In this document: positions 2 to 14,897 of the stretch, piece after piece
Layout of the letters: each line of letters starts with the position of its first letter
Numbering within the stretch: the stretch's first letter is position 1
NCBI GenBank assembly: GCA_017395105.1
Contig: JAFPWD010000039.1
Location: forward strand, 1 to 56,634
Direction: 5' to 3'
Length of the DNA: 56,634 nucleotides
From: Clostridia bacterium
GTDB lineage: Bacteria; Bacillota; Clostridia; Christensenellales; CAG-138
Position numbers and translations under genes: made by a program
Notes under the pieces: generated by a model
Told to the model about the DNA's origin: nothing
The model's database searches: none
What the model saw: only the letters and a program-made list of their open reading frames with translations

Positions 2-685
2 AAGGGCACCTTCAACTGCGTGATCGACAGCATCCGCGTTTACAACCCCCATGCCGAGCAGGTAACCAAGGATCATATCTATGCTCAGCATAATGAAGAG
101 AACCCCCTGTTCACTCAGGTTCGCGACAGGCTCATCAACGCAGCAAGCTTCGGCGGCCCAGCCGATCGCGTAAGCGGCATCGTTTACATCGACGGCTCCA
201 ACGGCGATGAAGTTACGATCGAGGACTACATCATCTACGGACCCAAGAACGAGGCGTATCTCAAGCCCGGCAACGGCTTCGCCTTCACCGTTAAGGAGTT
301 CGATAAGAACAGCTCCAGGCTGCATATCAGCGCAAAGTGCCCCAACGGCAAGAGAGTTGCTATGCTCGTCAACGGTCATAAGATCGAGGTAAAAGGCAGC
401 GTTATCAACATTGACTCCGCAACCGAGATGTTCTTCGACGTAACCGACTACATTCCGGCCGACGGCCGAGTTGCGATCACCTGCGCAGTTACGGACGGCG
501 ATTCCGATGCGATCCTCTCCGTCGGCAGCATCAAGCTGATCTCCGATGCGCAGCCCACCAGAGGCGGTGATAACGACAGCTTCTACGTGGATCAGGGTCT
601 GATCGACTTTGCAGCCAAGATCATCACAGGTCGGAGCATCGATCGTGGAATTCGCTCCGATAACTCCAAGAAGATCTGCAGCTGA
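2..685 (+). CDS. C-terminal end of a large protein of unknown function (partial)
   Basis: The reading frame is open from base 2, so the gene begins outside the window; the first possible start, a GTG at base 20, has no ribosome binding site. The visible 227 residues are rich in beta-prone, Asn/Asp-containing segments (for example IDSIRVYNP, VYIDGSNGDEVTIEDYIIYG, ISAKCPNGKRVAMLVNGHK), a pattern typical of beta-sandwich modules of secreted or surface proteins. No sorting signal, transmembrane segment or catalytic motif is visible at the C-terminus. A terminator follows directly. I do not recognise the family; an extracellular location is inference from composition only. Confidence 0.7.
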   Translation, partial: KGTFNCVIDSIRVYNPHAEQVTKDHIYAQHNEENPLFTQVRDRLINAASFGGPADRVSGIVYIDGSNGDEVTIEDYIIYGPKNEAYLKPGNGFAFTVKEFDKNSSRLHISAKCPNGKRVAMLVNGHKIEVKGSVINIDSATEMFFDVTDYIPADGRVAITCAVTDGDSDAILSVGSIKLISDAQPTRGGDNDSFYVDQGLIDFAAKIITGRSIDRGIRSDNSKKICS

Positions 686-749
686 CCCCCTTTCCTGCAT
701 GAGCTTGCCAGAAGCAGGCATGCATAAGACATTACCTAAATAATCAGCC

Positions 750-788
750 TTTCTCCGCAGGGCATGCGCTCTGCGGAGAGTTGTTTTT
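750..788 (+). terminator. Rho-independent terminator
   Basis: A 9-bp stem (TCTCCGCAG at 752-760 with CTGCGGAGA at 771-779) is followed by TTGTTTTT. It ends the partial gene upstream. Confidence 0.8.
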
Positions 789-819
789 GGCAGATACGCG
801 CTCGCGCAGGAGCGGAATG

Positions 820-850
820 CAAAGGGGATCGCCCTTGAGCGATCCCTTTC
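820..850 (-). terminator. Hairpin downstream of rluA, possible terminator
   Basis: An inverted repeat pairs AAAGGGATCGC with its complement (one bulged base) at 821-832 and 839-849. Read on the minus strand it lies about 75 bases after the rluA stop and ends in a short TTT, so terminator function is plausible but weakly supported. Confidence 0.4.
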
Positions 851-922
851 ATGCTTCATTATTATATTTGCTTCAACAGCGGATTTTGCTTGCTCCGGCG
901 AGAAAAAATGATATCGACTCAT

Positions 923-1807
923 TCACGGTATCGGCGAGCCTTTCAATAATTTGCGCATATCTGCGGGAAGTGGGGCTTCGGCCTCGATCACGTCCCCGCT
1001 CAGCGGATGGGTGAAGGAAAGGTGCGCGGAATGCAGCGCGGGGCGGGCTATAAGGCTTCGGTTCTCGGTTCCGTACAGAAAATCACCCGCGAGCGGATGC
1101 CCGATATGCGCCGTATGTACCCGTATCTGATGTGTTCTGCCGGTCTCAAGGCGGAATTCAACAGCGGAAAATCCGTTTGCTTCATCAAGAACGCGGTAAT
1201 TAGTTGCGGCGGGACTGCCGCCTTGGCTCACCTCGCGCTTTATCGCGCTGCTCTCGATCCTTGCGATCGGAAAAGCGAGCCTGCCGCTTTTTTCCTCGAA
1301 AATGCCCTCGCATACGCCGATATAGGTTCGCTCAAAGCTTGTGTGCAGCAGCTCGGCGAGCTTTTCGTGCATAAAGCCGCTCTTTGCGATTGCCATAACG
1401 CCCGTGGTGCCGCGATCGAGCCTGTTCACAGGATGAAAAAGCCCGATCCTGCCGAAATAGGAGTTCACCGCATCCTCGATCGAAGGCGCCGCATCGTCAT
1501 AGCGCGAGCCGTGCACCGCAGCGCCTGCGGGCTTGTTTATAATAAGAATATCCTCGTCCTCAAACAGGACGGGAAAGGGCAGGGGAGAGCGCCCGCTTTT
1601 TGCGGGGCTTTCGCCAACGGCGGCGGAAACGATATCCCCCGCCTTAACTCGCTCGTTTGTTTTCGCGCGCTCTGCATTCAGAAATATGCCGCCCTCGCGC
1701 TTAAGCCGTGCGATAAGCCCGTTTGAAAGCTTGAGCTCACCGCGCAATATGGCAGCAACGCTTCGCCCGCAATCCGCTTGCGTTGCCGTGTGGGAAATAA
1801 TGCGCAT
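923..1807 (-). CDS. RluA-family pseudouridine synthase
   Basis: The 294-residue protein isomerises uridine to pseudouridine in rRNA or tRNA. An N-terminal S4-like RNA-binding domain (about residues 10-65) precedes the RluA catalytic domain with the hallmark HPVNRLDRGTTG; Asp131 is the expected catalytic residue. The later RTHQIRVH (substrate pocket) and HPLAGDFLYG motifs are also present, and length is normal for the RluA/RluD subfamily. The start is an ATG behind a GGAAAGGGGGTG purine stretch. It has its own promoter and is separated from the upstream lipoprotein gene by a terminator. Which RNA position it modifies cannot be told from sequence. Confidence 0.93.
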   Translation of the reverse strand: MRIISHTATQADCGRSVAAILRGELKLSNGLIARLKREGGIFLNAERAKTNERVKAGDIVSAAVGESPAKSGRSPLPFPVLFEDEDILIINKPAGAAVHGSRYDDAAPSIEDAVNSYFGRIGLFHPVNRLDRGTTGVMAIAKSGFMHEKLAELLHTSFERTYIGVCEGIFEEKSGRLAFPIARIESSAIKREVSQGGSPAATNYRVLDEANGFSAVEFRLETGRTHQIRVHTAHIGHPLAGDFLYGTENRSLIARPALHSAHLSFTHPLSGDVIEAEAPLPADMRKLLKGSPIP

Positions 1808-1852
1808 TCAGGCACCCCCTTTCCGAGCTTTGGTTTTATTGCTTCATATCAG

Positions 1853-1881
1853 ATGATACTATAGTTTCGCTCGAAAGGCAA
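1853..1881 (-). promoter_or_regulatory. Promoter of the rluA-family gene
   Basis: On the minus strand TTGCCT (1881-1876) and TATCAT (1858-1853) are separated by 17 bases, about 45 bases upstream of the start codon. Confidence 0.5.
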
Positions 1882-1929
1882 GGGCTCGAGCGCGGGCGAG
1901 TGATAAAGCCCATTTTTAAGGGAAACTAT

Positions 1930-1960
1930 AAAAACAGCGCTGCCCATTTCGAGCAGCGCC
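1930..1960 (-). terminator. Terminator of the blaI/M56-LRR/lipoprotein operon
   Basis: On the minus strand a 7-bp stem GCGCTGC/GCAGCGC (1959-1953 with 1943-1937) is followed by TGTTTTT, about 20 bases after the lipoprotein stop codon. Confidence 0.75.
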
Positions 1961-1978
1961 TGCCGATCGACACTCGCA

Positions 1979-3046
1979 TCAATCGGGATCATAGATGAAT
2001 TCGAGCACGTTCTCGGGATCGTCCACCACCAGCTCTCCGTTTTCAAAACGCAGGCGGTAATAGGTTACATCGTTGTAATCGACGTAGCCGTCGCCCCATT
2101 CGTCGGTCGGGATGAAGCGGGCATAGCGGGCGTAGAGCTTGCCTTCCTCGGAAACGAAGGATATGCTCCGCCAACCGTAGAACACGGTGCCGCTTGCCAC
2201 ACGCACAGCCTTCCCATTTTCATCGGCGCGAAGCACGGTTGTGCGGGTATTGTATTGGCTGCTGTAATAGCCCCATTCCTGAGCCAATATTTCGCAAATG
2301 CCGTCATCATCGAGATCGCCGACCGTCAGATTTTCAAAGGCTTCAAATCGCGTGACCTCGAAGCCGCCGATCAGATAGTATTCCTCGCGGAACATCCAGC
2401 CGCCGTCGCCCTCGGGCCGCAGGTCAATGATCGCCATATAAAGATCCATTCCGAGCTCATGGAGCCCTTCGGGGCTGCGGTCTATCGCATCGATGAGCTT
2501 ACCCTTGGGGCAGGAGGTGCTCATAAGCTTCATGGCCTGATCCTCGCCGTAGCTGCCGCCTTGAGCGGGCAGGATGAAGTTGAGACTGCCGGTGGGCTTG
2601 GGAACGTTGTCCGCAACGTTGTGATAGTACGCCGATATCCAGCAATCGTCGCGGCGAACGTAGAAATGGTTGCCGTAATCGTTCAGCACCTCGAAGCCGT
2701 TTTCCGCGCAAGCATCGAGAAATGCATCGAAGCTCTCGCGCTTTAGATTCTCTGTGCGGTATCGCGTTGCGCCGGGCTCAAACTCCGCCCATTCGGGCAG
2801 AAGCGAGCGGATCAGCGCATCCGCTTCGCCAAGGGGTTCCTCGGTGGGCTCGGGCGTGGGAGCTTCAGTTGGCGCTTCGGTCGGCACCTCGGTGGGCGCT
2901 TCAGTCGGCGTGGTTGTCGGCATCTCGGTGGGTGCTTCCACGGGCTTCGGGGTTCCGTTCGCGGTCTGTTCACCGTTCGGCTTGCAGGCAAGGAGCGCAG
3001 AGGCGCATAGCAGCGCCGCAAGCAGCATCGGGAATGTTCTTTTCAT
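1979..3046 (-). CDS. Secreted lipoprotein with Pro/Thr spacer
   Basis: A 355-residue lipoprotein of unknown function. The N-terminus is a lipoprotein signal peptide with lipobox (LLAC, Cys20). A proline/threonine/glutamate spacer of APTE-type repeats (about residues 34-68) follows, a common wall-crossing linker in Gram-positive bacteria. The globular part has no recognised catalytic motif; VGDLDDDGICEI resembles the calcium-binding loop of FG-GAP/EF-hand-like repeats. It begins behind AGGAG, 59 bases downstream of the M56-LRR gene on the same strand, and a terminator follows it, so it is probably the last gene of that regulated operon. It could be the target or accessory sensor of that system, which is inference. 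Confidence 0.8.
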   Translation of the reverse strand: MKRTFPMLLAALLCASALLACKPNGEQTANGTPKPVEAPTEMPTTTPTEAPTEVPTEAPTEAPTPEPTEEPLGEADALIRSLLPEWAEFEPGATRYRTENLKRESFDAFLDACAENGFEVLNDYGNHFYVRRDDCWISAYYHNVADNVPKPTGSLNFILPAQGGSYGEDQAMKLMSTSCPKGKLIDAIDRSPEGLHELGMDLYMAIIDLRPEGDGGWMFREEYYLIGGFEVTRFEAFENLTVGDLDDDGICEILAQEWGYYSSQYNTRTTVLRADENGKAVRVASGTVFYGWRSISFVSEEGKLYARYARFIPTDEWGDGYVDYNDVTYYRLRFENGELVVDDPENVLEFIYDPD

Positions 3047-3104
3047 GGTTTTCTCCTTTCTTGACTATCGGTTTCGCATGACATCCGCAACTGTTCACAA
3101 TAAA

Positions 3105-6100
3105 CTAATTACCCCCATGGTACCCTATCAGCTTCACCCCCGCATCGGTCGTGATATCGAGCACGGGGCAGCCCGTGCAGTCCACGGATGAAAGCCTGTT
3201 GTTGCGGCAGTCCACGGAGGAAAGTCGGGCGCAGTAGGTGATATCGAGCTTGCTCAGCCCGTTTCCATGGCATGAGATCTCCTCAAGCGCGCCGCAGCCC
3301 GAAACGTTCAGCTCGCTCAGGCTGTTTTGCCTTAAGTCGAGAATTACGAGAGTTGGATTGTTTGAAAGATCAAACTTTCCTGTGAGGGCATTGTTCCCGC
3401 AGGCGATCTGAATGAGCGAAGTATTGCTTGAAACGTCGAGGCTTGCAAGTCGGTTTCCGCTGCAGACCAGTTCGGCAAGCGCGGTGCAGGAGGAGATGTT
3501 CAGCTCGCTCAGATCGTTGTTTACGCATATAAGCTCCGTGAGCGCGGTGCAGCCCGAAAGCTCGAGCTGTGTAAGCTCGTTTTCCTGACAGTAGAGCATC
3601 GTGAGGGCGGTGCAGCCCGAAACGTTCAGCGTTTTGAGTCCCATGCCGGAGCAGTTGAGCCTGCTGAGCGCGGTGCAGCCCGAAACATCGAGCGAATCGA
3701 GCTTAACGTCCTGAATATAAAGCGCTTCGAGCGATGAGCAGCCCGAAAGTGCGAGCGAATTAAACGGATTGCCGAAGCAGATCAGCTCCGTAAGCGATGA
3801 GCAGCCCGAAAGCTCGAGCTCGGTCAGCTCGTTGTACTTGCAGGCAAGCGAAGCAAGCGCAGCGTTCCCGGAAAGTGCGAGCAAAGGCAGCTTGTTGAAG
3901 CTGCAATCGAGCTTTTCAAGCAGGGGACAGCCCGAAAGCTCAAGCTCGGTCAGCTCGTTCCACGAGCAATCCAGCTCCTTGAGAGCGGGACAGGAGGAAA
4001 GCTCGAGCCGTGTAAGCGCATTTGTGCCGCACCTGAGGATCGTGAGCGCGGGACAGTCGGTGATATCGAGCGAGTTTATCCCGCACGAGCCGCAGTTGAT
4101 CTGATCGAGAAGCGGGCAGGAGGAAGCGTTTATCGAATCAAGCTTCGTTTCGGAGCATCCGAGAGATTCAAGCGCGGGGAAGCGCGAAACGTTCAGCTCG
4201 CCCACCACCTTTGCCCTATCAAAGCTTATATCGTAAACATGCCGCTCGCCTGCGTATACGACCCAATGGACGACGTAAGGCCCCCATGTTTCGGGCTCGC
4301 CCGAAACATATTCCCCGCTAATCTTGGAGCCATTCGTTCTTCCTTCGTCGTCAACGGTGTCGAAAAACGCGGAGAGCATGGCGACCTCGCGCTCGTTGTA
4401 GCGGCTTACAAGCTCGATGTCGCCGGGCTCGGCATCCCTCTCGGGCAGGTCGATCGGTTCGATGCGATAGCACATTTCGATATCGTGAAAATGAGTGAGT
4501 GTATAGTCGGGCGAGTAGATGATCTTCGAGATAACGAGCTCGCCCTCGGCGGGCATTTCGTATTCTATCTTCAAAATACCGTCGGTGAGGTAATGCACGC
4601 TCGCAAGCGCGTTGTAGCCGACGCAGTATTTTTTCGCGGTCTCTGGATGGATCTGCCGAACCTCGAGTATCGCCTGCCTATGCAGCGCGGCAACGGGATC
4701 GATCCTTTCAACGGCCTCTATGGGATCGCCGACAGTCAGTCCTTCAAACGCGCTGTGCGGCTGAAGCTTGCCGATAACGATCGGGAAACCCTTGGTAATG
4801 TCGATGCCGCCGTTGTCGCGGTCGATAAAAACGTATTCGCGGTAGCCGCGCTCGGAATCGAAGATAAGATACTCCTCTCCGCTTGAAGCGGTTCTCAGAG
4901 CATCCGTCGGAAACATGAACGTAAGATAGTCTATCCCGAGGGTGTGCGGCCCCGAATTGCGGTTAGCGCAGCCGTCCTTGCCGAGCTGAGCGCGGGTGTT
5001 TTCAAGCAGCAGCTCATAATCGGGGTAGACGGGCACGGCGAGCTTTTCAGGCACGGGTGCCGGGGTATCCGTTGGCGCCGCGCTCGGAGCTTCGGTTGGT
5101 GCTCCAGTGGGTGCGGTCGTTGGGGCAAGGGGCTGCTTTTCGCCATCGCCGTCCGTTTCCCTCGGCTTGCTTGCGCCCGTGAAGGTGCAGCCTATCGCTA
5201 TCGCGGCGGCAACGATCACCGCGGCGAGCATTAGACCCGTCATGCGCGGCTTTTTCGCGATAAGTGCAACGCGTTCCCTGAGGCTGCCCTTGCTTGCGGT
5301 CATCGTGGTTGCGGCAAGCAGCAGCCCCGAGGGTCTGCGGCAGGTCAGGCTTATGAGGGTTTTGCCGTATTCGGCGCGCTCGGCCTCGCCTATGCGCGCT
5401 ATCGCCGCCTCGTCGCAGGCAAGCTCCTGATCGCGCCTTGACAGGCTTGCGGCGAGCCAAACGAGCGGGTTATACCAATGCAGCGCAAGGCAAAGCCCGC
5501 GCAGCGCGGAGAAAATATGGTCGAGATGCCGCGCGTGGGTGCGCTCGTGCGCAATAACGTGGCGCAGCCTGCCATCATCCGCCGCCGCTTCGCCCGTTAC
5601 GTAGATAGCGGGCGAGATGAGCCCGAAAAGGCAGGGCGTTTCGAGCGCATCCGAAACATAGACGGGCAGATCGCAATCTGCATTTTCAAGCCTTCTGCGG
5701 CTCTTTTTCAGCTTTTTGGCCGTGCGGATATTGCCCGCGAGGAATGCCGCGAGCACCGCCGCAGCGCCCGCGAGCCAAATGACCGCAAGCGCCTTTTTCA
5801 GATCGAACGGAGCGATAGCAGCCTTGCCGCCGCCGTTATCGCCGCTGTTATCGCCGCCCGCCGTGCCGGGAAGGATGGGACTCGGTCTCCCGGTTTCAAC
5901 CGGCGCGGGAGTGATGCGGCTTTGCGGCCTCGGTGCGCCTGCGATGGGCGCGGCGGCGGGCACGATCGGTTTTGCGCCGCCATCGACCCTTTCGCTTGTG
6001 AAAATGCGCACTTCATCGGGAACGGTGTTTAAAACGCTGATCGGGCTTGCGCCGAAGCTTAGCGGCACGAGCAGGCGAACGAGCACCAGCGCCCAGAGTG

Positions 6101-6197
6101 CGTATTGAAGGCGCAGGCATATCCTGCCGCGCAGCAGACAGCGCAGCGCGATCACGATCAGGATAAGTGCGCATGAGGTGATGATCCATTCAAGCAT
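3105..6197 (-). CDS. M56 (BlaR1/MecR1-type) membrane metallopeptidase fused to leucine-rich repeats
   Basis: A 1030-residue membrane sensor/protease. Residues 1-320 form a BlaR1-type M56 domain: N-terminal membrane helices, then the gluzincin motif HERTH (His217, Glu218, His221) and downstream ELACDEAA carrying the expected third zinc ligand. A last membrane helix (about 319-337) leads to an extracellular Pro/Thr spacer (about 350-385). A beta-rich region follows, and about 17 tandem 21-residue leucine-rich repeats (consensus LxLSGCxxLxxLxCxxNxLxx) fill the C-terminus. In classical BlaR1/MecR1 the extracellular sensor is a penicillin-binding domain, absent here. The start at 6197 is preferred over one 11 codons upstream because it sits behind GGAGGAGGG and overlaps the repressor stop (ATGCTTGA). 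By analogy, ligand sensing outside would trigger intracellular proteolysis that ends BlaI repression. Confidence 0.88.
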   Translation of the reverse strand: MLEWIITSCALILIVIALRCLLRGRICLRLQYALWALVLVRLLVPLSFGASPISVLNTVPDEVRIFTSERVDGGAKPIVPAAAPIAGAPRPQSRITPAPVETGRPSPILPGTAGGDNSGDNGGGKAAIAPFDLKKALAVIWLAGAAAVLAAFLAGNIRTAKKLKKSRRRLENADCDLPVYVSDALETPCLFGLISPAIYVTGEAAADDGRLRHVIAHERTHARHLDHIFSALRGLCLALHWYNPLVWLAASLSRRDQELACDEAAIARIGEAERAEYGKTLISLTCRRPSGLLLAATTMTASKGSLRERVALIAKKPRMTGLMLAAVIVAAAIAIGCTFTGASKPRETDGDGEKQPLAPTTAPTGAPTEAPSAAPTDTPAPVPEKLAVPVYPDYELLLENTRAQLGKDGCANRNSGPHTLGIDYLTFMFPTDALRTASSGEEYLIFDSERGYREYVFIDRDNGGIDITKGFPIVIGKLQPHSAFEGLTVGDPIEAVERIDPVAALHRQAILEVRQIHPETAKKYCVGYNALASVHYLTDGILKIEYEMPAEGELVISKIIYSPDYTLTHFHDIEMCYRIEPIDLPERDAEPGDIELVSRYNEREVAMLSAFFDTVDDEGRTNGSKISGEYVSGEPETWGPYVVHWVVYAGERHVYDISFDRAKVVGELNVSRFPALESLGCSETKLDSINASSCPLLDQINCGSCGINSLDITDCPALTILRCGTNALTRLELSSCPALKELDCSWNELTELELSGCPLLEKLDCSFNKLPLLALSGNAALASLACKYNELTELELSGCSSLTELICFGNPFNSLALSGCSSLEALYIQDVKLDSLDVSGCTALSRLNCSGMGLKTLNVSGCTALTMLYCQENELTQLELSGCTALTELICVNNDLSELNISSCTALAELVCSGNRLASLDVSSNTSLIQIACGNNALTGKFDLSNNPTLVILDLRQNSLSELNVSGCGALEEISCHGNGLSKLDITYCARLSSVDCRNNRLSSVDCTGCPVLDITTDAGVKLIGYHGGN

Positions 6198-6597
6198 TTT
6201 TTTCGCCCTCCTCCCCGTTCTGCGCCTCAAGCTTGGCTAAAAGCGCATACATTTCGTCTATCTCGCTTTTGGAAAGCCTCTGCTTGCGCGTAAAGGAGCT
6301 GAGCATAAGGCTCATGCTGCCGTGATAGATGCGAGCAAGCAGGTTCTCGGTTTCGTTTATGGCGGCCTCGTCGCGGCTGATGAGCGGAATAAAGGCCCTT
6401 TTTCCCGAGCCGTCCACCTCGCCCACGGCGGATTTAGCCTCCATGCGCCGCAGCAGGGTAAGCGTTGTGCTGCGGCTCCAGCCACGTGCATTTTCCATGG
6501 ATTCGCAAACCTCGCGACCCGATGCGGGCGCGCTCTGCCAAAGGCATTCCATGACCTGCCATTCGGCCTCGGTTAGTGTCAGTCTGTTTTTCTCCAT
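6190..6597 (-). CDS. BlaI/MecI-family transcriptional repressor
   Basis: A 135-residue winged-helix repressor of the BlaI/MecI/CopY family, the soluble partner of M56 sensor proteases. LTEAEWQVMECLW begins the winged helix, and WSRSTTLTLLRRMEAK is the family's recognition-helix region. The C-terminal half is a dimerisation helix bundle of normal length. The ATG at 6597 is chosen because AAGGAG lies 8 bases upstream; a GTG at 6606 would touch that site. It is the first gene of an operon, overlapping the M56-LRR gene by 8 bases, and its promoter carries two palindromes of the TACANNTGTA type bound by BlaI proteins, so autoregulation is likely. Confidence 0.92.
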   Translation of the reverse strand: MEKNRLTLTEAEWQVMECLWQSAPASGREVCESMENARGWSRSTTLTLLRRMEAKSAVGEVDGSGKRAFIPLISRDEAAINETENLLARIYHGSMSLMLSSFTRKQRLSKSEIDEMYALLAKLEAQNGEEGEKNA

Positions 6598-6689
6598 TGC
6601 GCTCACTCCTTAATTATCGATCGGTTTCGTACTTCCGTTAAAAACGGCAAAAGCCGCCCTATGCGGATAAGCCCTTGCTCAAGCTTGTT

Positions 6690-6739
6690 TGTTTACAACT
6701 GTAAACATATTATATCAATGCTGTTTACGGCTGTCAACA
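6690..6739 (-). promoter_or_regulatory. Promoter with two BlaI-type operators
   Basis: On the minus strand a consensus promoter is visible: TTGACA (6737-6732), a 17-base spacer and TATAAT (6714-6709). Two 18-base palindromes bracket it. TGTTTACA-AC-TGTAAACA at 6690-6707 is a perfect inverted repeat across the expected start of transcription, and TGTTTACG-GC-TGTCAACA at 6722-6739 overlaps the -35 box. Both contain TACA/TGTA-like half sites as in bla and mec operators. Binding here would block RNA polymerase. Confidence 0.9.
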
Positions 6740-6903
6740 GTTTTTGGGGCAAATTTTATATTATTTTTCGCTCGAAAGCTGTTTTTCCGAGAAATATATA
6801 ATCAAACCGCCCCGTTTGGGCATTCCATTATCGGCGTATTTATGATACACTATTGCCCGCAGCCCCGTGCGGCTGCCTAATAAAATCTTCGGAGCTGAAC
6901 TGA

Positions 6904-7416
6904 ATGCGGCGCAGTATGGATGCAAAAACAAGAAGCCTCGTTATGTCCGCGGTTTTTGCGGCGCTTATTTGCGCTTCCACCTTTATAATAAGAATACCCT
7001 CGCCCATTCAGGGCTATATCAACCTCGGCGACTGCTTCGTGCTGCTTGCTGCGTGGACTCTGACGAGGAAGCTCGGTGCGCTCTCCGCTGCGGTCGGCTC
7101 TGCGCTTGCCGATCTTTTGGCGGGCTATGCGATATTCGCCCCCGCAACCTTCGTTATTAAGGGGCTTGTGGCGCTTACCGCATATCATTGCTTTAAGGCA
7201 GTTAAGAAAAAAAACAAAATAAATGCTGCCGCGATCACATCTGCAATCGCGGCGGAATGTGTTATGATATTGGGCTATTTTATTTACGAAAGCTTTCTGT
7301 ACGGCATAAAGGCGGCCTCGGTAGGCATACCCTTCAATGTGATACAGGGCGCGGTGTGCATACTTCCCGCATGTATTCTGTATGAGCTGATAGGATCAAA
7401 GATCGGCTCAAAATGA
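6904..7416 (+). CDS. ECF transporter S component
   Basis: A 170-residue integral membrane protein of the energy-coupling-factor substrate-binding family (PF07155-like). About five to six hydrophobic helices are visible. The segments AVFAALICASTF, GYINLGDCFVLLAAW and GALSAAVGSALADLLAGY are typical of S components that bind a vitamin or vitamin precursor and share a common ECF ATPase module. No cognate EcfA/EcfT genes and no riboswitch are visible nearby, so the substrate cannot be named. The start has GGAG 9 bases upstream; a second ATG four codons in is an alternative. A short hairpin (GCAGCC/GGCTGC, around 6859-6876) lies in the leader. Confidence 0.88.
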   Translation: MRRSMDAKTRSLVMSAVFAALICASTFIIRIPSPIQGYINLGDCFVLLAAWTLTRKLGALSAAVGSALADLLAGYAIFAPATFVIKGLVALTAYHCFKAVKKKNKINAAAITSAIAAECVMILGYFIYESFLYGIKAASVGIPFNVIQGAVCILPACILYELIGSKIGSK

Positions 7417-7440
7417 GCGACCGCTAACACTAATCACTGT

Positions 7441-8112
7441 TTACTCGGGCAGCTGCCAATCTATCGGCGCTTGCCCGCTTTTTTCAAGAATCTCATTGCA
7501 TTTTGAAAAGTGACGGCAGCCGAAAAAGCCGTTGTAAGCGGAGAGCGGGCTCGGGTGGACGGTCTCGAGCTTAACGTGGATCGGGTTCGTTATGACCTTC
7601 GCCTTCTGCCTCGCGTTTGCGCCCCAAAGCAGGAACACGACCGGCGTTTTTTTATTGTTCAGCTCGGCAATAACGCGGTCGGTGAACTTCTCCCAGCCGC
7701 AGCCCTTGTGAGAATTTGCCTGATGTGCGCGAACGGTCAAAACCGCGTTCAGCATCAGCACGCCCTGCTCCGCCCAATGCGTAAGCTCACCGTGCATCGG
7801 GGGAATGAAGCCAATGTCCGAAGCAAGCTCCTTGTAGATGTTTTTTAAGGACGGCGGCGGCTCGATGCCGCGCAGAACCGAGAAGCAGAGCCCATGCGCC
7901 TGATTTTCGCCGTGGTAGGGGTCCTGCCCAAGAATGACCGCCTTCGTGTTTTCAAACGAGGTGAACTTGAGCGCGTTGAATATGTCGTTCATATTCGGGT
8001 AGATCGTGCGAGTGCGGTATTCGCTCACAAGGAAGCGCCGAAGCTCCTTATAGTATTCCTTTTCAAATTCATCCGCAAGGATGCTGTTCCAATCGTTGCC
8101 GAGATTGACCAT
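7441..8112 (-). CDS. ung: Uracil-DNA glycosylase, family 1
   Basis: A 223-residue base-excision repair enzyme that removes uracil from DNA. The water-activating loop GQDPYH (residues 62-67, catalytic Asp64) and the leucine-intercalation loop HPSPLSA (His186 onward) are intact, as is the uracil pocket segment LLWGANA. Length and motif spacing match family 1 enzymes closely. The gene faces the ECF gene tail to tail, with only about 25 bases between the stop codons and no strong terminator there. Confidence 0.97.
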
Positions 8113-8261
8113 ATTCGCCTCCGTTAAGAAAAAATCAACTTAAAGATACATGAAAAACGGGATATTGTCAAGAAGAAATAATATTAATTTCATTATTATG
8201 GATACGAGGATTGCATTGCTGTAACGAGTAATAAATGTTCCGCAGCAGCGGCATTATATAC

Positions 8262-8338
8262 TTGCTGCATGGGCGAAGATGCACTATAATAGCAAATGTC
8301 TTTGGCATCGTGCATACAGTAGTTGTTTTTGCTATTAT
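8262..8338 (+). promoter_or_regulatory. Promoter overlapped by an 11-bp inverted repeat
   Basis: TTGCTG (8262-8267) and TATAAT (8285-8290) are spaced by 17 bases. The -10 region begins one arm of a perfect 11-bp inverted repeat, ATAATAGCAAA (8286-8296) with TTTGCTATTAT (8328-8338), and 31 bases lie between the arms. This could be an operator or a stem in the leader of the small open reading frame at 8376. Confidence 0.5.
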
Positions 8339-8375
8339 GTAAGAGTGGGATAAATATTTTGGTTAGGAGTCAGAA

Positions 8376-8534
8376 ATGAATCATTTGAAAAGAATTTTCA
8401 GCGGCAAAACACCGGGGTTTGAAATTTCTGGGTGGTCATTCACGTATGAAAAGTCAGTTGATACGCCCGCTCGCTTCTACACAACAAACGGTTCAGCTCC
8501 GGGCGGTGGTGGTGTTACACCAATGCCGGTGTGA
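8376..8534 (+). CDS. Small hypothetical protein (52 residues)
   Basis: An ATG with AGGAG six bases upstream opens a 52-residue frame that starts MNHLKRIFSGK and ends APGGGGVTPMPV. A promoter lies about 85 bases upstream. The protein has no membrane helix and no family I recognise. A further short frame (about 8588-8653) follows before the membrane protein gene, so this may be the remnant of a longer gene broken by mutations. The ribosome binding site and promoter favour real expression, but coding status is uncertain. Confidence 0.4.
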   Translation: MNHLKRIFSGKTPGFEISGWSFTYEKSVDTPARFYTTNGSAPGGGGVTPMPV

Positions 8535-8649
8535 CGTTCGGATGCTGTTAAACAGCGGACAGATGCCATTCCCGCATGGCACCAATAATGACAGTTCAGG
8601 TTGACTATGAACTGCCGGAACAGTTATACAAATATGGGAGGATTTGCTT

Positions 8650-8850
8650 GTGAAAAAAAACAGTCTTGGAATAGCCTTTTTGCTTTTCGGTGCCGTTGTC
8701 GCACTCGGTGCGATCTCGCAAATTATGCTGTTTGCGGTTATTGCATGGATTTCCGGCTTAATCGGACTTCTTCTTGCAATATCGGCTTATTGCTCTAAAG
8801 CGGACGGCATGGCAGGCAATGGCGGCAAAGTCGATGATGCCGATAATTGA
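8650..8850 (+). CDS. Small membrane protein with two predicted helices
   Basis: A 66-residue protein starting at a GTG that has GGGAGG 8 bases upstream. Two hydrophobic stretches (about residues 6-27 and 31-47) are joined by a very short turn, followed by a hydrophilic, Gly/Asp-rich tail, so it should be a helical hairpin in the membrane. No family recognised. It lies about 65 bases upstream of the SCIFF promoter on the same strand; a functional link to the peptide is not shown. Confidence 0.55.
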   Translation: MKKNSLGIAFLLFGAVVALGAISQIMLFAVIAWISGLIGLLLAISAYCSKADGMAGNGGKVDDADN

Positions 8851-8916
8851 GGAAGAAAGCTGACTATAAGGTGAAACTCGGCGGTTCGGCAGTTTTTAGT
8901 GCAAAAACTTTAGAAT

Positions 8917-8945
8917 TTGACTAAATGGATTCCTTGTGCTATAAT
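8917..8945 (+). promoter_or_regulatory. Promoter of the SCIFF locus
   Basis: TTGACT (8917-8922) and a perfect TATAAT (8940-8945) are 17 bases apart; transcription would begin about 30 bases before the SCIFF start codon. Confidence 0.85.
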
Positions 8946-8979
8946 AAATCAGTTCAAATCTTTTTCGGAGGATACCAAA

Positions 8980-9132
8980 ATGAAACACATCGTTACTCTT
9001 AACGAAAAAACCCTTTGCGAAAGCGCGAAGAATGGCGGCTGCGGCGAATGCCAGACCTCCTGTCAGAGCGCCTGCAAGACCAGCTGCGGCATTGCGAACC
9101 AGCAGTGCGAAAACGCCGAGAAGGCGGAGTAA
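8980..9132 (+). CDS. scfA: SCIFF ranthipeptide precursor
   Basis: A 50-residue ribosomally made peptide of the SCIFF family (six cysteines in forty-five residues), which is conserved across Clostridia and modified by a dedicated radical SAM enzyme that forms thioether bonds from Cys to non-adjacent residues. The core CGECQTSCQSACKTSC (residues 21-36) plus Cys43 provides the six family cysteines. An additional Cys13 lies in the leader part, giving seven. The ATG at 8980 has GGAGG 8 bases upstream and begins MKHIVTLN, the usual SCIFF N-terminus; the frame also extends upstream from 8917, but that part overlaps the promoter. The maturase gene follows after about 290 bases filled with hairpins. 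Confidence 0.96.
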   Translation: MKHIVTLNEKTLCESAKNGGCGECQTSCQSACKTSCGIANQQCENAEKAE

Positions 9133-9134
9133 GC

Positions 9135-9381
9135 CGGCAAGCGGCGCTTGCCGCGCTCAGCTAAATTCGCCCTTTCGGGCGAGCTGAATTGTGCCTTTGC
9201 ACAGCTAAATTCGCTTCGCGAGCTAAATCGCGCTTTGCGCGGCTCAAAGGGCGAATTTTATTTAGCTGAAAACCTTTGGTTTTCAATTTCGCTGTTTCGC
9301 TCCGCGAAACAATTTAGCTGCCGCTGTTGCGGCAATTTAGCTCAAAAGCAAACCCGAGCCGAGAGCCTTGCAGCTCTTGGC
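9135..9381 (+). repeat. Array of short hairpins separated by AGCTAAATT / AATTTAGCT spacers
   Basis: Directly after the SCIFF stop comes an 8-bp hairpin (CGGCAAGC-GGC-GCTTGCCG, 9135-9153). A series of short palindromes follows: 9168-9181, 9191-9202, 9212-9220, 9229-9241, 9268-9284, 9294-9310 and 9320-9333. In the left half they are divided by AGCTAAATT (9159, 9182 with one change, 9203, 9221 truncated); in the right half by the reverse complement AATTTAGCT (9311, 9334, and partial copies near 9261 and 9285). The whole block is therefore also one large imperfect inverted repeat. A further hairpin with one G-T pair (9358-9381) precedes the maturase. There is no coding signal in this stretch. Confidence 0.85.
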
Positions 9382-9419
9382 TTTGTTTGATATGATGTTT
9401 GTTATTATTTGAGATTGTT

Positions 9420-10793
9420 ATGATACATCAATATAAACTCGGCGGACTGAATATGGTAATCGACACCTGCTCGGGAAGCGTTCACGCGGTGGACGAGCTT
9501 GCGTATGAGCTGATCGGCGGTTTCGAGGAAAAAAGTCGTGAAGAGCTGGTTTCGGAGCTCTCCGCGCGCTTCGGCGCAGCTAAAAACGAAGTTGAGGAAT
9601 GTTATAACGATATTGCGGAGCTCAAAGCGGCCGGCAAGCTCTTCGCTCCCGATGATTTCGAGCCGATGGCGGGCGAGCTCAAGGCGCGCACGGCGGGCGT
9701 TGTGAAGGCGCTATGCCTTCACGTTGCGCACACCTGCAACCTCAACTGCTCCTATTGCTTCGCAAGCCAGGGCAAATATAGCGGCGAACGCGCTCTTATG
9801 AGCTTCGAGGTCGGAAAACGCGCGCTCGATTTTCTTATCGAGAATTCGGGAACGAGGCATAATCTCGAGGTCGATTTCTTCGGCGGCGAACCGCTGATGA
9901 ATTTTGACGTTGTAAAGCGGCTGACCGAGTACGCCCGAAGCATCGAGAAGCAGCACAACAAGAATTTTCGCTTTACGCTCACCACGAACGGCGTTTTGAT
10001 CAACGACGACGTGATCGACTTTGCAAACCGCGAGATGAGCAACGTGGTTCTGAGCCTTGACGGGCGCAAGCAGGTGCATGACCGCTTCCGCGTGGACTAT
10101 GCGGGCAACGGCAGCTTCGATAAAATAGTGCCGAAATTCCAAAAGCTCGTTAGCTCGCGCGGCGGCAAGGGCTACTATATGCGCGGCACGTTCACCCACC
10201 ATAACCCCGATTTTCTTGAGGATGTGAAGGCGATGCTCGATCTCGGCTTTACCGAGCTTTCGATGGAGCCCGTGGTCTGCGCCGAGGACGATCCGAGTGC
10301 GCTGACTAAAGAGGATATCAAGCTGGTCATGCGCCAGTATGAGGAGCTTGCGGAGCTGATGAAATCCCGCCGCGCTGAGGGAAAACCGTTTACATTCTAT
10401 CATTATATGATCGACCTCACCGGCGGTCCCTGCATCTATAAGCGCATCTCGGGCTGCGGCAGCGGAACGGAGTACATGGCCGTCACCCCGTGGGGCGATC
10501 TCTACCCCTGCCACCAGTTCGTGGGCGATGAAAGCTACCGCCTTGGCAGCGTTTTCGAGGGCGTGACGAATACGAGCGTGCGCGATGAATTCGCTTCCTG
10601 CAACGTGTATGCGCGCGAGGACTGCCGCGACTGCTGGGCGAAGCTGTACTGCTCGGGCGGCTGCGCGGCAAACGCCTACCACGCCACGGGGAGCATTCGC
10701 GGCGTGTATAAGCCCGGCTGCGAGCTTTTCAAAAAGCGCATGGAGTGCGCAATAATGCTTGAAGCCTCAAGGCTTTTGGAGAATATGGAATGA
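9420..10793 (+). CDS. scfB: Radical SAM SCIFF peptide maturase (thioether-forming)
   Basis: A 457-residue radical SAM/SPASM enzyme that installs thioether cross-links in the SCIFF peptide (CteB-type). The N-terminal part (about 1-90) corresponds to the peptide-recognition region. The radical SAM cluster motif is CNLNCSYC (Cys106, Cys110, Cys113), with FFGGEP as the SAM-binding motif. The C-terminal SPASM region has many cysteines (GCGSGTEY, LYPCHQF, CRDCWAKLYCSGGC and a final GC) for two auxiliary iron-sulfur clusters. The ATG at 9420 (MIHQYKLGG) is taken as start; its ribosome binding site is weak, which may mean control by the hairpins upstream. The gene overlaps the next by four bases (ATGA), suggesting coupled translation. 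Confidence 0.95.
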   Translation: MIHQYKLGGLNMVIDTCSGSVHAVDELAYELIGGFEEKSREELVSELSARFGAAKNEVEECYNDIAELKAAGKLFAPDDFEPMAGELKARTAGVVKALCLHVAHTCNLNCSYCFASQGKYSGERALMSFEVGKRALDFLIENSGTRHNLEVDFFGGEPLMNFDVVKRLTEYARSIEKQHNKNFRFTLTTNGVLINDDVIDFANREMSNVVLSLDGRKQVHDRFRVDYAGNGSFDKIVPKFQKLVSSRGGKGYYMRGTFTHHNPDFLEDVKAMLDLGFTELSMEPVVCAEDDPSALTKEDIKLVMRQYEELAELMKSRRAEGKPFTFYHYMIDLTGGPCIYKRISGCGSGTEYMAVTPWGDLYPCHQFVGDESYRLGSVFEGVTNTSVRDEFASCNVYAREDCRDCWAKLYCSGGCAANAYHATGSIRGVYKPGCELFKKRMECAIMLEASRLLENME

Positions 10794-12178
10794 GCAAAAC
10801 GCCTATCTGCGATTTTGTGGATAACTACGCGAAAAGCGGCACCGTGCGGGCGCACATGCCTGGACATAAGGGCGCCGCTTTTTTGGGCTGCGAGGCTCGG
10901 GACATAACCGAAATCTGCGGTGCGGACGAATTATACGGCGCAAGCGGCATAATCAAAAAAAGCGAGCGCATCGCTTCGGAAATTTTCGGAACGGGGGAGA
11001 CCTATTACTCCACCGAGGGCTCGTCGCTCTGCATTCGCGCCATGCTTTTTCTTGCCCTGATGAATGCGAAAGAGCGGGGGAGCGCGGGCAAAACCGTGCT
11101 TGCGGGCAGGAATGCGCATAAAACGCTGATTTCCGCCGCCGCGCTGCTTGATCTCGATATCGAATGGCTCTATCAGAGCGAAAATTCGGAAAGCGGCGCG
11201 AATGAAAGCCTTTTGAGCTGCATCATAGATGAAGAAACGCTTGAAAATGCGCTTTCTCGGGCGAACGAAAAGCCGATAGCGGTCTATATCACCTCGCCCG
11301 ATTATCTCGGGAATATCGCGAATATCGCTGCGCTTGCGGGAATCTGCAAAGCGCACGGCGCTCCGCTGATAGTGGACAACGCCCACGGCGCGTATCTGCG
11401 CTTTTTAAAGCCGAACCTGCACCCTATCGCGCTCGGTGCCGATATGTGCTGCGACAGCGCGCATAAGACCCTGCCCTGTATTACGGGGGCGGCGTATCTG
11501 CATATAAATACGGAAGCTCCGAAGCTCTTCTCCGAGATGGCGGAGAAGGCGCTTGCGCTCTTTGCCTCCACAAGCCCTTCGTACCTGATTTTGCAGTCGC
11601 TCGACGTATTCAACGGGCTTTGCGGCGCAGGCTACGAAAGGCGGCTTGAGTTAGCGGCGCAGCGCATCGAAAAGCTCAAGCAAAAGCTTGAAGGCTTCGG
11701 CTATGCGCTCATCGGCAGCGAACGCCTGAAGCTGACCCTTGCGCCGAAAAGCATAGGCTATACGGGGCATGAGCTTGCGGAGTATCTGCGCAAAAACGGT
11801 GTGGAATGCGAATTTGCCGATCCCGATTTTACGGTTTTGATGCTCTCGATGCAAACGGGTGAGGCGGGGCTTGAGCAAATCGAAAAAAAACTGCTTTCAA
11901 TAGAAAAACGCGCTCCAATAGCGCAGAAGCCGCCGCGCCTTGCAAGGCTTGAGCGGGCGCTTTCCGCCCGTGAAGCGGTGCTTGCGCCGCAGGAGCAGGT
12001 TGCGCTTGAAAATGCCTCGGGGCGAATACTCGCGCTCGATCACTGCGCCTGCCCGCCCGCCGTGCCGATAGCCATAGCGGGGGAAAGGCTCGATGAAACG
12101 GCGATAGAATGTCTGAAATATTACGGAATTTCGGCGGTAAGCGCGGTCAAGAAAGAATTTTACAGGCTCGAAGAGTAA
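10790..12178 (+). CDS. Orn/Lys/Arg decarboxylase-family PLP enzyme
   Basis: A 462-residue fold-type I PLP enzyme related to arginine/lysine/ornithine decarboxylases of the short Bacillus type (SpeA/YaaO). The N-terminal MPGHKG, the IVDNAHGAY loop (Asp196) and the PLP-binding Lys226 in SAHKTLP are all present, and a C-terminal Orn/Lys/Arg decarboxylase domain follows. Expected chemistry is decarboxylation of a basic amino acid to a polyamine precursor; the substrate is not decided by these motifs. It overlaps the SCIFF maturase by four bases, so it is probably cotranscribed with it. Confidence 0.9.
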   Translation: MSKTPICDFVDNYAKSGTVRAHMPGHKGAAFLGCEARDITEICGADELYGASGIIKKSERIASEIFGTGETYYSTEGSSLCIRAMLFLALMNAKERGSAGKTVLAGRNAHKTLISAAALLDLDIEWLYQSENSESGANESLLSCIIDEETLENALSRANEKPIAVYITSPDYLGNIANIAALAGICKAHGAPLIVDNAHGAYLRFLKPNLHPIALGADMCCDSAHKTLPCITGAAYLHINTEAPKLFSEMAEKALALFASTSPSYLILQSLDVFNGLCGAGYERRLELAAQRIEKLKQKLEGFGYALIGSERLKLTLAPKSIGYTGHELAEYLRKNGVECEFADPDFTVLMLSMQTGEAGLEQIEKKLLSIEKRAPIAQKPPRLARLERALSAREAVLAPQEQVALENASGRILALDHCACPPAVPIAIAGERLDETAIECLKYYGISAVSAVKKEFYRLEE

Positions 12179-12197
12179 GCGGAGCAAGGCGAATAAT

Positions 12198-13568
12198 ATG
12201 GAAAACTCGGCTGTTAAAAATAAAAAAGGCGATCTGACGGGCGGCTCCATCGGCAAAAGCCTGCTGTTTTTCTTCCTTCCGATACTTGCGGGAACATGGT
12301 TTCAGCAGCTCTACAACGCCGTTGATGCGGCGATAGTCGGGCGCTATGTCGGCCATGAGGCGCTGGCGGCGGTCGGCGGCAGCGCTGCAACGATATTGAA
12401 CCTGTTCATCGGCTTCTTCGTTGCGCTCTCCACGGGTGCAACGGTGGTCATCTCGCATATCTTCGGCGCAAATAAGGAGGAGGGCGAGCTTGGTAAGGCA
12501 ACGGGCACGGCGGCGGCGTTCAGCCTGCTGTTCGGCGCATTCGTTGCGGCGATTTGCGTTATCTTCACGCCTCAAATGCTCAAGCTGATGAAAACGCCCG
12601 CAGAAACGATGGCGGATGCGGCGAGCTATCTGCGGATATGCTTTGCGGTAACGCCTGCGGTGCTGCTTTTGAATACCGAAAGCGCCCTGCTTCGCGCGGT
12701 GGGCGATTCAAAGCGCCCGTTCATCTTTATGGCGATAGCCTGCCTTATCAATATCGCGCTCGATCTGCTTTTCGTTGTGCGCCTCAAAATGGGCGTTAAG
12801 GGCGCGGCGCTCGCCACGATCATCTCCCAATGCGTGAACTGCCTGCTTCTTACATTCACGCTTCTTATCACAAAGCAGCCGTACAGACTGAAAATAAAGA
12901 ATATCGCTCTGCACCGCGATATGCTCAAGCGCATGATGCGCATAGGGCTTCCATCGGGGCTTGAGGCGAGCATGTACAGCGTTTCAAACATGGTGATGCA
13001 GGTGGCGGTCAATGCGCTCGGAACGGTCGTGGTGGCATCGTGGTCGCTCGCGGGCAAGCTCGACGGTTTCTATTGGGCGATGGCGCAGGCAACGAACGCG
13101 GCGGTGATGAGCTTCGTTGGGCAGAACTACGGCGCGGGACGGCACGACCGTGTGCGCGGCTCGGTCAAAACGGGGCTGAAAATGTTCAGCATAATGACCG
13201 TTATAATGAGCGCCCTTATAATCGCGGCTGCGCCCCAAGCGCTGAAGATATTTACCACGGATAAGGACGTTTTATCAACTACTTACACAGTTATTCTGTA
13301 CTTCGTTCCGTTCTATTTTATCTGGACGGCGATAGAAACCCTCTCGGGAACCCTGCGCGGCTGCGGCGACACCAAGCCCGTGCTTATAACGGGCATAGGA
13401 ATCTGCTGCTTCCGAGTAATTTGGGTGCTGGTGATGTATCGGCTGTTCCCAACGCTGTTCTGCGTTTCGATCTCATACATCATTTCGTGGAGTCTTACGC
13501 TTGCCGCGATGACGGTGTATTATAGGCGAAGGACGAGGCAGGGGGAGACCGCGATGAGCGGAGTTTAG
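12198..13568 (+). CDS. MATE-family multidrug/metabolite exporter
   Basis: A 456-residue protein with about twelve hydrophobic segments in two similar halves, typical of the MATE family (NorM/DinF-like), which exports organic cations, drugs or metabolites using a sodium or proton gradient. Signature stretches include LPILAGTWFQQLYNAVDAAI near the N-terminus and FVGQNYGAGRHDRV between the halves. It starts 20 bases after the decarboxylase gene on the same strand and is followed by a strong terminator, so it is the likely last gene of the SCIFF-decarboxylase transcript. Substrate unknown. Confidence 0.93.
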   Translation: MENSAVKNKKGDLTGGSIGKSLLFFFLPILAGTWFQQLYNAVDAAIVGRYVGHEALAAVGGSAATILNLFIGFFVALSTGATVVISHIFGANKEEGELGKATGTAAAFSLLFGAFVAAICVIFTPQMLKLMKTPAETMADAASYLRICFAVTPAVLLLNTESALLRAVGDSKRPFIFMAIACLINIALDLLFVVRLKMGVKGAALATIISQCVNCLLLTFTLLITKQPYRLKIKNIALHRDMLKRMMRIGLPSGLEASMYSVSNMVMQVAVNALGTVVVASWSLAGKLDGFYWAMAQATNAAVMSFVGQNYGAGRHDRVRGSVKTGLKMFSIMTVIMSALIIAAAPQALKIFTTDKDVLSTTYTVILYFVPFYFIWTAIETLSGTLRGCGDTKPVLITGIGICCFRVIWVLVMYRLFPTLFCVSISYIISWSLTLAAMTVYYRRRTRQGETAMSGV

Positions 13569-13586
13569 ATAATGAATAGTTTAGGA

Positions 13587-13612
13587 AGAAATGCCGCCGG
13601 CATTTCTTTTTT
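13587..13612 (+). terminator. Rho-independent terminator after the MATE gene
   Basis: A perfect 9-bp stem AGAAATGCC/GGCATTTCT with a 3-base loop is followed by five T. The bases just before it (AATGAATAGTTTAGGA) resemble the dispersed GAATAGT repeat of this window. Confidence 0.88.
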
Positions 13613-13635
13613 GCAGCCGAACAGGCGTTAAATCA

Positions 13636-13666
13636 AAATATCGCCCCCGCGAGGGAGGCGATATTT
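13636..13666. terminator. Bidirectional hairpin between the MATE and carbamate kinase genes
   Basis: An AAATATCGCC/GGCGATATTT inverted repeat lies between the convergent genes. A/T runs on both sides let it act in either direction; it is the only clear hairpin downstream of the carbamate kinase gene. Confidence 0.65.
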
Positions 13667-13761
13667 AATTTGCTTTGTTTTCTTCATCAGTCCGCAGCGA
13701 CTGCACAGCACTATTCCAGCCGCTCCGGAAGATAATAAAGCTTAGTTTTTTTCAGTTTAAC

Positions 13762-14700
13762 TCAGCAAACGGTGGTGCCGGCCTTGCCTGCAAGCGCCTC
13801 AACGGCCTTATCCAGCGAGGTGATGATGGCCTTCCTGCCGGGCTTGCTGGCGGCGAACTTGATCGCGGCCTCGACCTTGGGCAGCATGGAGCCGGGAGCG
13901 AAGTGGCCTTCCTTGATGTACTGCTCCGCCTCGGGGATGGTGAGGGTGGAGAGCTTCTTCTCGTCGGGCTTGCCGAAGTTGATGCAAACGGTCTCAACGG
14001 CGGTCAGTATAACGAGCGCATCCGCGTCGATATCCTCGGCGAGCTTCTCGCTTGCAAGATCCTTGTCGATAACCGCAGCGGTGCCGATAAGGTTGCCCTT
14101 TTCATCGCGAACAACAGGGATTCCGCCGCCGCCGACGGTAACGGCGATGAAGCCGCCGTCGATCAGGCACTTAACGGCATCAAGCTCAACGATCTCAACG
14201 GGCATGGGGGAGGCAACAACACGGCGCCAGCCGCGGCCTGCATCCTCCTTCATGGTGTAGCCCTTGGTTTCGGCAAGCTGCTTGGCTTCCTCTTCGGAAT
14301 AGAAGGGGCCGATGGGCTTGGAAGGATTCTTGAACTTGGGGTCGTCCTTATCCACAACAACCTGGGTAACAACGGTCGCAACGCGCTTTTTGTTTCCGCG
14401 AGCGCGCAGAACCTTTTCAAGACCCTGCTGGATATGGTAGCCGATATAGCCCTGGCTCATAGCGCCGCAAACGTCGAAGGGCATAGCGGGGGTTTCCTTG
14501 GCGGCGTATTCATTCTGAATAACTATGCGGCCAACCTGCGGGCCGTTGCCGTGTGCGAGCACAACGTCATAGCCGCTCTCGATGATGTCGGCAATGTATT
14601 CCGAGGTCTTCTCAACTACCTCGAGCTGGCTTTCGGCGGTTGCGGGCTTACCCGCTTCCTGAAGGGCGTTTCCGCCAAGAGCGATAACGATCTTTTTCAT
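13762..14700 (-). CDS. arcC: Carbamate kinase
   Basis: A 312-residue amino acid kinase-fold enzyme that reversibly converts carbamoyl phosphate and ADP to ATP, ammonia and CO2. The N-terminal IVIALGGNALQ phosphate loop, LAHGNGPQVG, AMSQGYIGY, the VGGGGIPVV loop and KDLASEKLA are characteristic, and length is normal. The ATG at 14700 has GGAG a few bases upstream and begins MKKIVIAL; longer frames upstream run into the promoter. The usual arginine deiminase partners arcA and arcB are not adjacent, so it is monocistronic here and may serve another carbamoyl phosphate source. Confidence 0.96.
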   Translation of the reverse strand: MKKIVIALGGNALQEAGKPATAESQLEVVEKTSEYIADIIESGYDVVLAHGNGPQVGRIVIQNEYAAKETPAMPFDVCGAMSQGYIGYHIQQGLEKVLRARGNKKRVATVVTQVVVDKDDPKFKNPSKPIGPFYSEEEAKQLAETKGYTMKEDAGRGWRRVVASPMPVEIVELDAVKCLIDGGFIAVTVGGGGIPVVRDEKGNLIGTAAVIDKDLASEKLAEDIDADALVILTAVETVCINFGKPDEKKLSTLTIPEAEQYIKEGHFAPGSMLPKVEAAIKFAASKPGRKAIITSLDKAVEALAGKAGTTVC

Positions 14701-14750
14701 TTTTTTCTCCATACTAAAATAAAAATGCGGCGAGCGAGGCGCCAAAGCCA

Positions 14751-14779
14751 ATTATGCCAGTTATTTTCCCGCTTGTCAA
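14751..14779 (-). promoter_or_regulatory. Promoter of the carbamate kinase gene
   Basis: On the minus strand TTGACA (14779-14774) and CATAAT (14756-14751) are separated by 17 bases, about 50 bases upstream of the ATG. Confidence 0.8.
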
Positions 14780-14841
14780 CAGGGAAAACGGGAAAAAACG
14801 CAAATAAAACGGAAAAAAGCGGGAAAAACCCCAAATATATA

Positions 14842-14873
14842 CGGCGGCGCACAGAAAGGCTTGTGCGCCGCCG
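14842..14873 (-). terminator. Terminator of the lipoprotein gene
   Basis: A perfect 12-bp stem CGGCGGCGCACA/TGTGCGCCGCCG lies about 25 bases beyond the stop codon and is followed on the minus strand by an AT-rich stretch and TTTTT. Confidence 0.8.
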
Positions 14874-14897
14874 ATAAATGGAGCGTGCTAAGGCTGA

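Follow-up and report, generated by a model that had tools for sequence, protein, structure and literature searches.

A probable non-beta-lactam BlaI/M56 relay with a lipoprotein-like leucine-rich-repeat sensor in Clostridia

Proteases of the BlaR1 type have been known chiefly for sensing penicillin. In a 56,634-nucleotide stretch of DNA from a Clostridia bacterium of the lineage CAG-138 (GenBank assembly GCA_017395105.1, contig JAFPWD010000039.1), hereafter the window, genes for a BlaI-type repressor, an M56 membrane protease and a lipoprotein form, in that order, one apparent operon on the minus strand. As judged from sequence, with a probability of roughly 0.6, this operon encodes an autoregulated BlaI/M56 relay in which a lipoprotein-derived sensor for a non-beta-lactam signal replaces the usual input. 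The sensor is composed of leucine-rich repeats (LRRs) and pieces of surface lipoproteins and therefore probably detects something other than penicillin.

The repressor gene (positions 6190-6606) encodes 138 amino acids with a Penicillinase_R domain (Pfam, 3.8e-26), the protease gene (3105-6230) encodes 1041 amino acids from a TTG codon (Peptidase_M56, 3.5e-47; LRR_4, 1e-20), and the third gene (1979-3046) encodes a 355-residue lipoprotein whose signal peptide ends in LLAC. The ATG at 6197 (residue 12) is the likelier start of the M56 gene, in which case the reading frame and the 3' end of blaI share 8 nt; in a relative, locus L045, the M56 frame begins exactly at the equivalent position. The operon is preceded by a sigma-70-type promoter (TTGACA-17-TATAAT, 6709..6737, minus strand), which matches 12/12 consensus positions and is bracketed and overlapped by two BlaI-type operators. 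The upstream operator, TGTTTACGGCTGTCAACA (6722-6739), overlaps the -35 box and departs from the palindrome at 2 positions, and the downstream operator, TGTTTACAACTGTAAACA (6690-6707), lies just past the -10 box and matches the palindrome with 0 mismatches. A mean of 0.05 matches to this palindrome is expected in the window, and none of 100 shuffles contained two. No minus-strand promoter-like site was seen between the operon genes in a consensus scan of the region. A terminator-like stem-loop after the third gene (1936..1960, minus strand) is a consensus match only, and such matches also occur inside genes (13 in the region vs 6.9 in shuffles). Neither a beta-lactamase nor a penicillin-binding gene is found among the operon genes.

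Both signalling partners retain the features of their families. The repressor possesses the Penicillinase_R domain of the BlaI/MecI family (PF03965), its gene touches the M56 start, and it aligns with BlaI and MecI of Staphylococcus aureus, including the phenylalanine of the cleavage site: S104-F105 of the window protein is aligned with N101-F102, where S. aureus BlaI is cleaved by BlaR1 (PMC9834060). At position 105, 151 BlaI neighbours of M56 genes carry F (71), M (47) or L (27). The protease stretch aligns with BlaR1 and contains the HERTH zinc motif (5535..5549, minus strand; residues 228-232) intact, together with the distal acidic residues E269 and D273 that place it in peptidase family M56 (PF05569). 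The original prediction of a BlaI-type repressor, an M56 protease with an intact HERTH motif and a lipoprotein in one operon, under a promoter bracketed by two BlaI-type palindromes, is thus confirmed by the Pfam matches, the motif, the reading frames and the promoter and palindrome matches.

The outer half of the protease follows the fourth transmembrane segment (TM4; 5187..5246, minus strand; R329-C348) and comprises four parts, all on the same strand: a Pro/Thr spacer (5040..5144, approximately residues 363-397; Pfam PT 0.00095, below the Pfam cut-off), an unclassified domain of about 200 amino acids, here called domain A (4431..5039, approximately residues 398-600), a cap (4131..4430, approximately residues 601-700) and cysteine-containing LRRs (3153..4130). 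The repeats align with those of internalin J (PDB 3bz5) at 2.7e-39; they are about 21 residues long and share its cysteine column, 13 having Cys at the LxxLxC place, and a loose pattern counts 17, in agreement with the earlier estimate of about 17. Their proposed location behind a Pro/Thr spacer stands in part, in that the spacer is present but domain A and the cap intervene before the repeats. Unlike internalins, which are stand-alone surface proteins with their own signal peptide, the LRRs here make up the C-terminus of an M56 protein; internalin J itself is a surface protein of the LPXTG type (PMC7291126) and has no protease fused to it.

The sensor half gave no penicillin-binding match in Pfam or PDB sequence searches. 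Sensors of BlaR1 and MecR1 carry a C-terminal penicillin-binding domain with SxxK, SxN and KTG motifs, and by sequence alone none is recognizable here: residues 386-620, the stretch that had been singled out for such a fold, contain no SxxK, SxN or KTG, nor the wider forms [SY]xN and [KRH][ST]G. The NF000326 profile reached 83 bits where the cut-off is 400, the best of 2 stretches covering model positions 130-301 of 585. A penicillin-binding fold is rejected on these grounds. For domain A, Pfam yielded nothing at E values up to 5, and the three PDB matches, at E 0.13-0.38, were taken as chance.

The fusion of protease and repeats is not an assembly artefact of a single genome, as the M56-LRR gene is found in three species of the genus. 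Orthologous loci were compared in the window's own genome (G000) and in genomes G002, G006 and G008. The G008 protein is 92-93% identical to that of the window (this closest orthologue, L040 3553-6561, has a frame that stops early within the last repeats), a protein of the rumen metagenome-assembled genome RUG13931 is 91% identical, and the G002 orthologue has the same architecture with fewer repeats; one pattern counts 13 repeats in the window, 10 in G008 and 3 in G002. At the orthologous locus of G006, where the neighbours on one side are the same, the protein is 69% identical over residues 6-401 and continues after the spacer into a different sensor. The operator pair is kept at all four orthologous loci, including the one with the swapped sensor; in the three relatives the upstream operator reads TGTTGACA..TGTAAACA, and the downstream operator is conserved too. 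Close orthologues of the third-gene lipoprotein are present in G008 (97%) and G002 (76%), both with an LRR sensor, and among the matches listed there is none in G006, where the best match covers residues 3-80. In G002 the lipoprotein gene stands at the start of a contig, and the initial bases of this contig are similar to the end of the one that carries the M56 gene. A distant homologue in G034 (26%) covers residues 22-352, and the matches listed include many partial, weak ones. Plasmid records matching the M56 protein number 33, none over more than 80% of its length; in the best 10 of the 33 the match lies in the LRR end in 9 and in the M56 core in 1. A second BlaI/M56 locus of the window's own genome (L005 5688-9460, contig C35) carries an LRR sensor of another type and looks split, because the M56 N-terminal part sits in a separate short frame.

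Beyond these loci, the LRR sensor is one of many. The window together with 101 fetched loci, with a single exception from the same GTDB family, supplied 99 M56 frames, and 92 further frames came from the best 80 of at least 589 loci; at 90% identity the 191 frames reduce to 178. Two overlapping sets of 95 and 89 sensor halves, 184 in all, were scanned with Pfam after the exclusion of four frames from the first set (three short, one without TM4) and three from the second. LRR_4 was found in 13 of the 95 and 2 of the 89, alongside RCC1, SBP_bac_5 (solute-binding), Lipocalin_4, NlpC/P60, M23, RHS and several DUFs. No penicillin-binding family occurs among the 25 listed of 28 families in the first set, the 24 of the second or the 15 retained at 1e-9. 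Ten M56 proteins were scanned whole, of which 7 have LRRs besides M56 and 3 do not. On a protease tree of 173 cores, nine LRR-labelled rows need 7 changes, at least 5 of them forced by supported branches, a count that is rough because the tree lacks two labelled proteins and at least two proteins with LRRs carry no label. Of the 180 M56 genes for which sufficient upstream sequence was available, 162 have a BlaI gene directly upstream, and the other 18 include split genes such as L005. The earlier proposal of a protease-relayed surface sensor for a non-beta-lactam ligand is therefore partly supported, by the BlaI/M56 pair, the missing penicillin-binding match and the occurrence in three species, and modified in that the LRR is one of many M56 sensors.

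A relationship of these sensors to lipoproteins is indicated by the domains they share. Measured from TM4 onward, 47 of 168 sensor halves find a partner at 1e-12 among the non-M56 frames of the fetched loci, a number that falls to 38 after removal of frames that lie at the edge of a locus and of those that are probably broken M56 ends; by a crude test, the partner is lipoprotein-like in 27 of those 38. At two loci left out of this count (L116 1477-5417 and L066 2883-5485), the M56 sensor half seems to be continued in another frame. Domain A recurs in four tandem lipoproteins of G002 (L048 4024-7212), the last of which is truncated at the edge of the contig, and in one lipoprotein of G008. It also forms the outer part of a one-TM protein of genome G001 (L059 3907-5368), whose gene overlaps, from behind, a helix-turn-helix gene with a tail that by eye resembles sigma region 4; this perhaps represents an anti-sigma-like use of the same sensor. 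The cap-LRR part is found in lipoproteins, one in the window's own genome. Within the window, a PT-spacer lipoprotein gene (14898-15845, minus strand) encodes a stretch related to the M56 cap (25% over 155 amino acids, 2e-7). The M56 sensors of these Clostridia thus look, from such comparisons, like exchangeable lipoprotein modules, an observation that is new here.

The extent of the regulon was assessed by searching the same four genomes for operators. This promoter is the only place where a site with 0 or 1 mismatch is present. When 2 mismatches were allowed, 3, 1, 0 and 2 sites were found off the promoter in G000, G002, G006 and G008, respectively, vs 0, 0, 1 and 0 in the control; all six have 2 mismatches, four lying inside long reading frames and two between genes. 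At up to 3 mismatches, the window's own genome holds 10 sites vs 5 in the reversed control. A wider regulon is not supported by these weak sites, and the restriction of strong operators to this promoter in the four genomes suggests that the main target seen is the operon, with the LRR receptor in it. Autoregulation is thus the clear part of the regulon as predicted from the sites, and a second target is possible. The lipoprotein, once proposed as the controlled gene, is indeed an operon mate, but the receptor would be a target as well. As the output seen is the operon itself, the circuit is likely a positive-feedback receptor with a partner lipoprotein. Automatic frame calling in 145 M56 genes with 800 nt downstream placed a same-strand frame within 300 nt in 67 and none in 78; the M56 protein may therefore be the main product controlled in other such circuits too.

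Several observations weigh against a relay with a lipoprotein-derived sensor. A lipoprotein as the next gene is not a general feature of M56 loci: a pattern that also fails to recognize the third-gene lipoprotein of the operon detects one in 7 of 145 cases, and a role as general cargo of M56 genes is not supported. The loss of the lipoprotein alongside the sensor swap is one event. Because the genus is rich in LRR proteins, the domains held in common may stem from a shared pool and not from direct exchange. A 2-mismatch site in the window's own genome (L255 2252-2269, G000:C15) lies 22 bases before an 851-amino-acid secreted-protein gene, which makes a second target possible, and the second intergenic 2-mismatch site is at G008:C160; the two site stretches have no blastn match to each other. 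The window's own genome is 68% complete.

In the relay favoured here, BlaI dimers bound to the two observed operators would close the promoter. On the outside of the cell, a protein, glycan or other polymer may bind to domain A and the InlJ-type repeats, and binding would alter the position of the sensor relative to TM4 and the outer loop, a change reported for BlaR1, and so activate the protease whose zinc motif is present. The protease would then cleave BlaI at the aligned site, Ser104-Phe105, and the relief of repression would lead to the synthesis of more receptor and partner lipoprotein. The sensor half presumably descends from surface lipoproteins, and sensor modules would be swapped with retention of protease and promoter, as observed at the orthologous locus.

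A rival model assigns a different role to TM4. The segment ends in a lipobox-like A-I-G-C and fits a type II signal pattern of the G+LPP type, which is taken here to consist of a basic start, a hydrophobic core and [AG]C. TM4 could therefore be a type II signal sequence that LspA cuts before Cys348, leaving domain A and the LRRs lipid-anchored; one gene would yield both a protease and a surface receptor, and the cut would be part of the signal. In support of this model, TM4 fits the pattern in 69 of 175 M56 proteins where 4.2 are expected by shuffling, TM2 fits it in 0 of 156, LspA is found in 4/4 genomes, and 78 of 145 M56 genes lack a same-strand frame in the 300 nt downstream. In addition, one M56 protein of locus L098 is 72% identical over 502 residues, from TM4 through the sensor, to an adjoining lipoprotein, signal peptide included, with 24/25 identities in the TM/lipobox region. 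In this locus (226-14964), three M56 genes alternate with genes for three lipoproteins, and the M56 sensors and the lipoproteins belong to one family. However, twelve alignments from 8 M56 proteins cross TM4, and the other 11 are weak there. Cys348 is kept in all 8 rows of one alignment (A2), but a cysteine near the TM4 end is present in 132 of 175 proteins, preceded by Gly or Ala in 90, and absent in 43, the close relative L044 included. Alanine occupies position -3 in the window and in 39/45 Cys-bearing rows of the TFTG subfamily, unlike most lipoboxes, and TM4 exits of the CFLTNP type have Val at -1. Cys occurs together with Gly/Ala at -1 (39/45 vs 3/21), a possible coupling that comes down to only 4 independent pairs once corrected for descent, and the lipobox label is patchy, requiring 33-36 changes on the tree. 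By analogy, the reported cut of S. aureus BlaR1 by the signal peptidase SpsB at the matching place after TM4 (PMC9834060) makes LspA cleavage a reasonable idea, which is nevertheless rather unlikely on balance. An extension of the same reasoning, put forward tentatively, is that M56 sensor proteases of Clostridia arise by whole-lipoprotein capture: the signal peptide would become TM4 with its lipobox kept, LspA would cut and lipid-anchor the sensor, one gene would serve as protease and surface receptor, the protease would report the state of its own lipoprotein, and the LRR protein of the window would be one of many captures.

Two further models both appear very unlikely. The operon could respond to beta-lactams or cell-wall damage, with the LRRs as an accessory, for example for peptidoglycan fragments; homology to the classical BlaR1/BlaI pair and the triggering of the Bacillus licheniformis system by a peptidoglycan fragment (PMC3305447) favour this, but the sensor lacks a penicillin-binding match or motif, and the operon lacks a beta-lactamase or penicillin-binding gene. 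Alternatively, the membrane core could read the signal and the LRR half be only a surface anchor or adhesin. A precedent is PetR/PetP of Synechocystis, a BlaI/BlaR1-type pair for which copper-dependent proteolysis has been proposed (PMC7896320). Against this, the sensor is exchanged at the orthologous locus while core and operators stay, and the lipoprotein goes with the sensor.

Set beside known systems, the proposed non-beta-lactam relay shares with BlaR1/BlaI and MecR1/MecI of staphylococci the repressor family, the M56 zinc core, the aligned BlaI cut site and promoter palindromes, and differs in having no penicillin-binding sensor match, no resistance gene in the operon and, in the four genomes searched, no strong operators elsewhere. 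PetR/PetP is likewise a BlaI/M56-type pair answering to a non-beta-lactam signal, but it concerns copper and photosynthesis genes, and LRRs are not mentioned in the available portions of that source (PMC7896320). The BlaI_1845 operon of Clostridium thermocellum is similarly an autoregulated BlaI-BlaR1 system with hypothetical proteins, in which ordered sites accommodate four protomers; it differs in its motif, GACTAT, in the beta-lactam response assumed by its authors and, in the portions available, in making no mention of LRRs (PMC8457756). Among the literature matches listed, drawn from a coverage that mostly excludes subscription journals, no LRR sensor on M56 proteins and no BlaR1 lipobox is named.

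The pairing of the same protease and repressor with exchangeable surface sensors suggests a large, little-studied class of one-step transmembrane signalling in gut Clostridia, and with the lipobox at TM4 the production and turnover of the sensor can be tested cheaply. Elsewhere in the window, a gene on the plus strand (48245-49672), RNA methyltransferase-like by eye, contains an N-terminal 63-bp tandem repeat of 5.3 copies with 90% matches.

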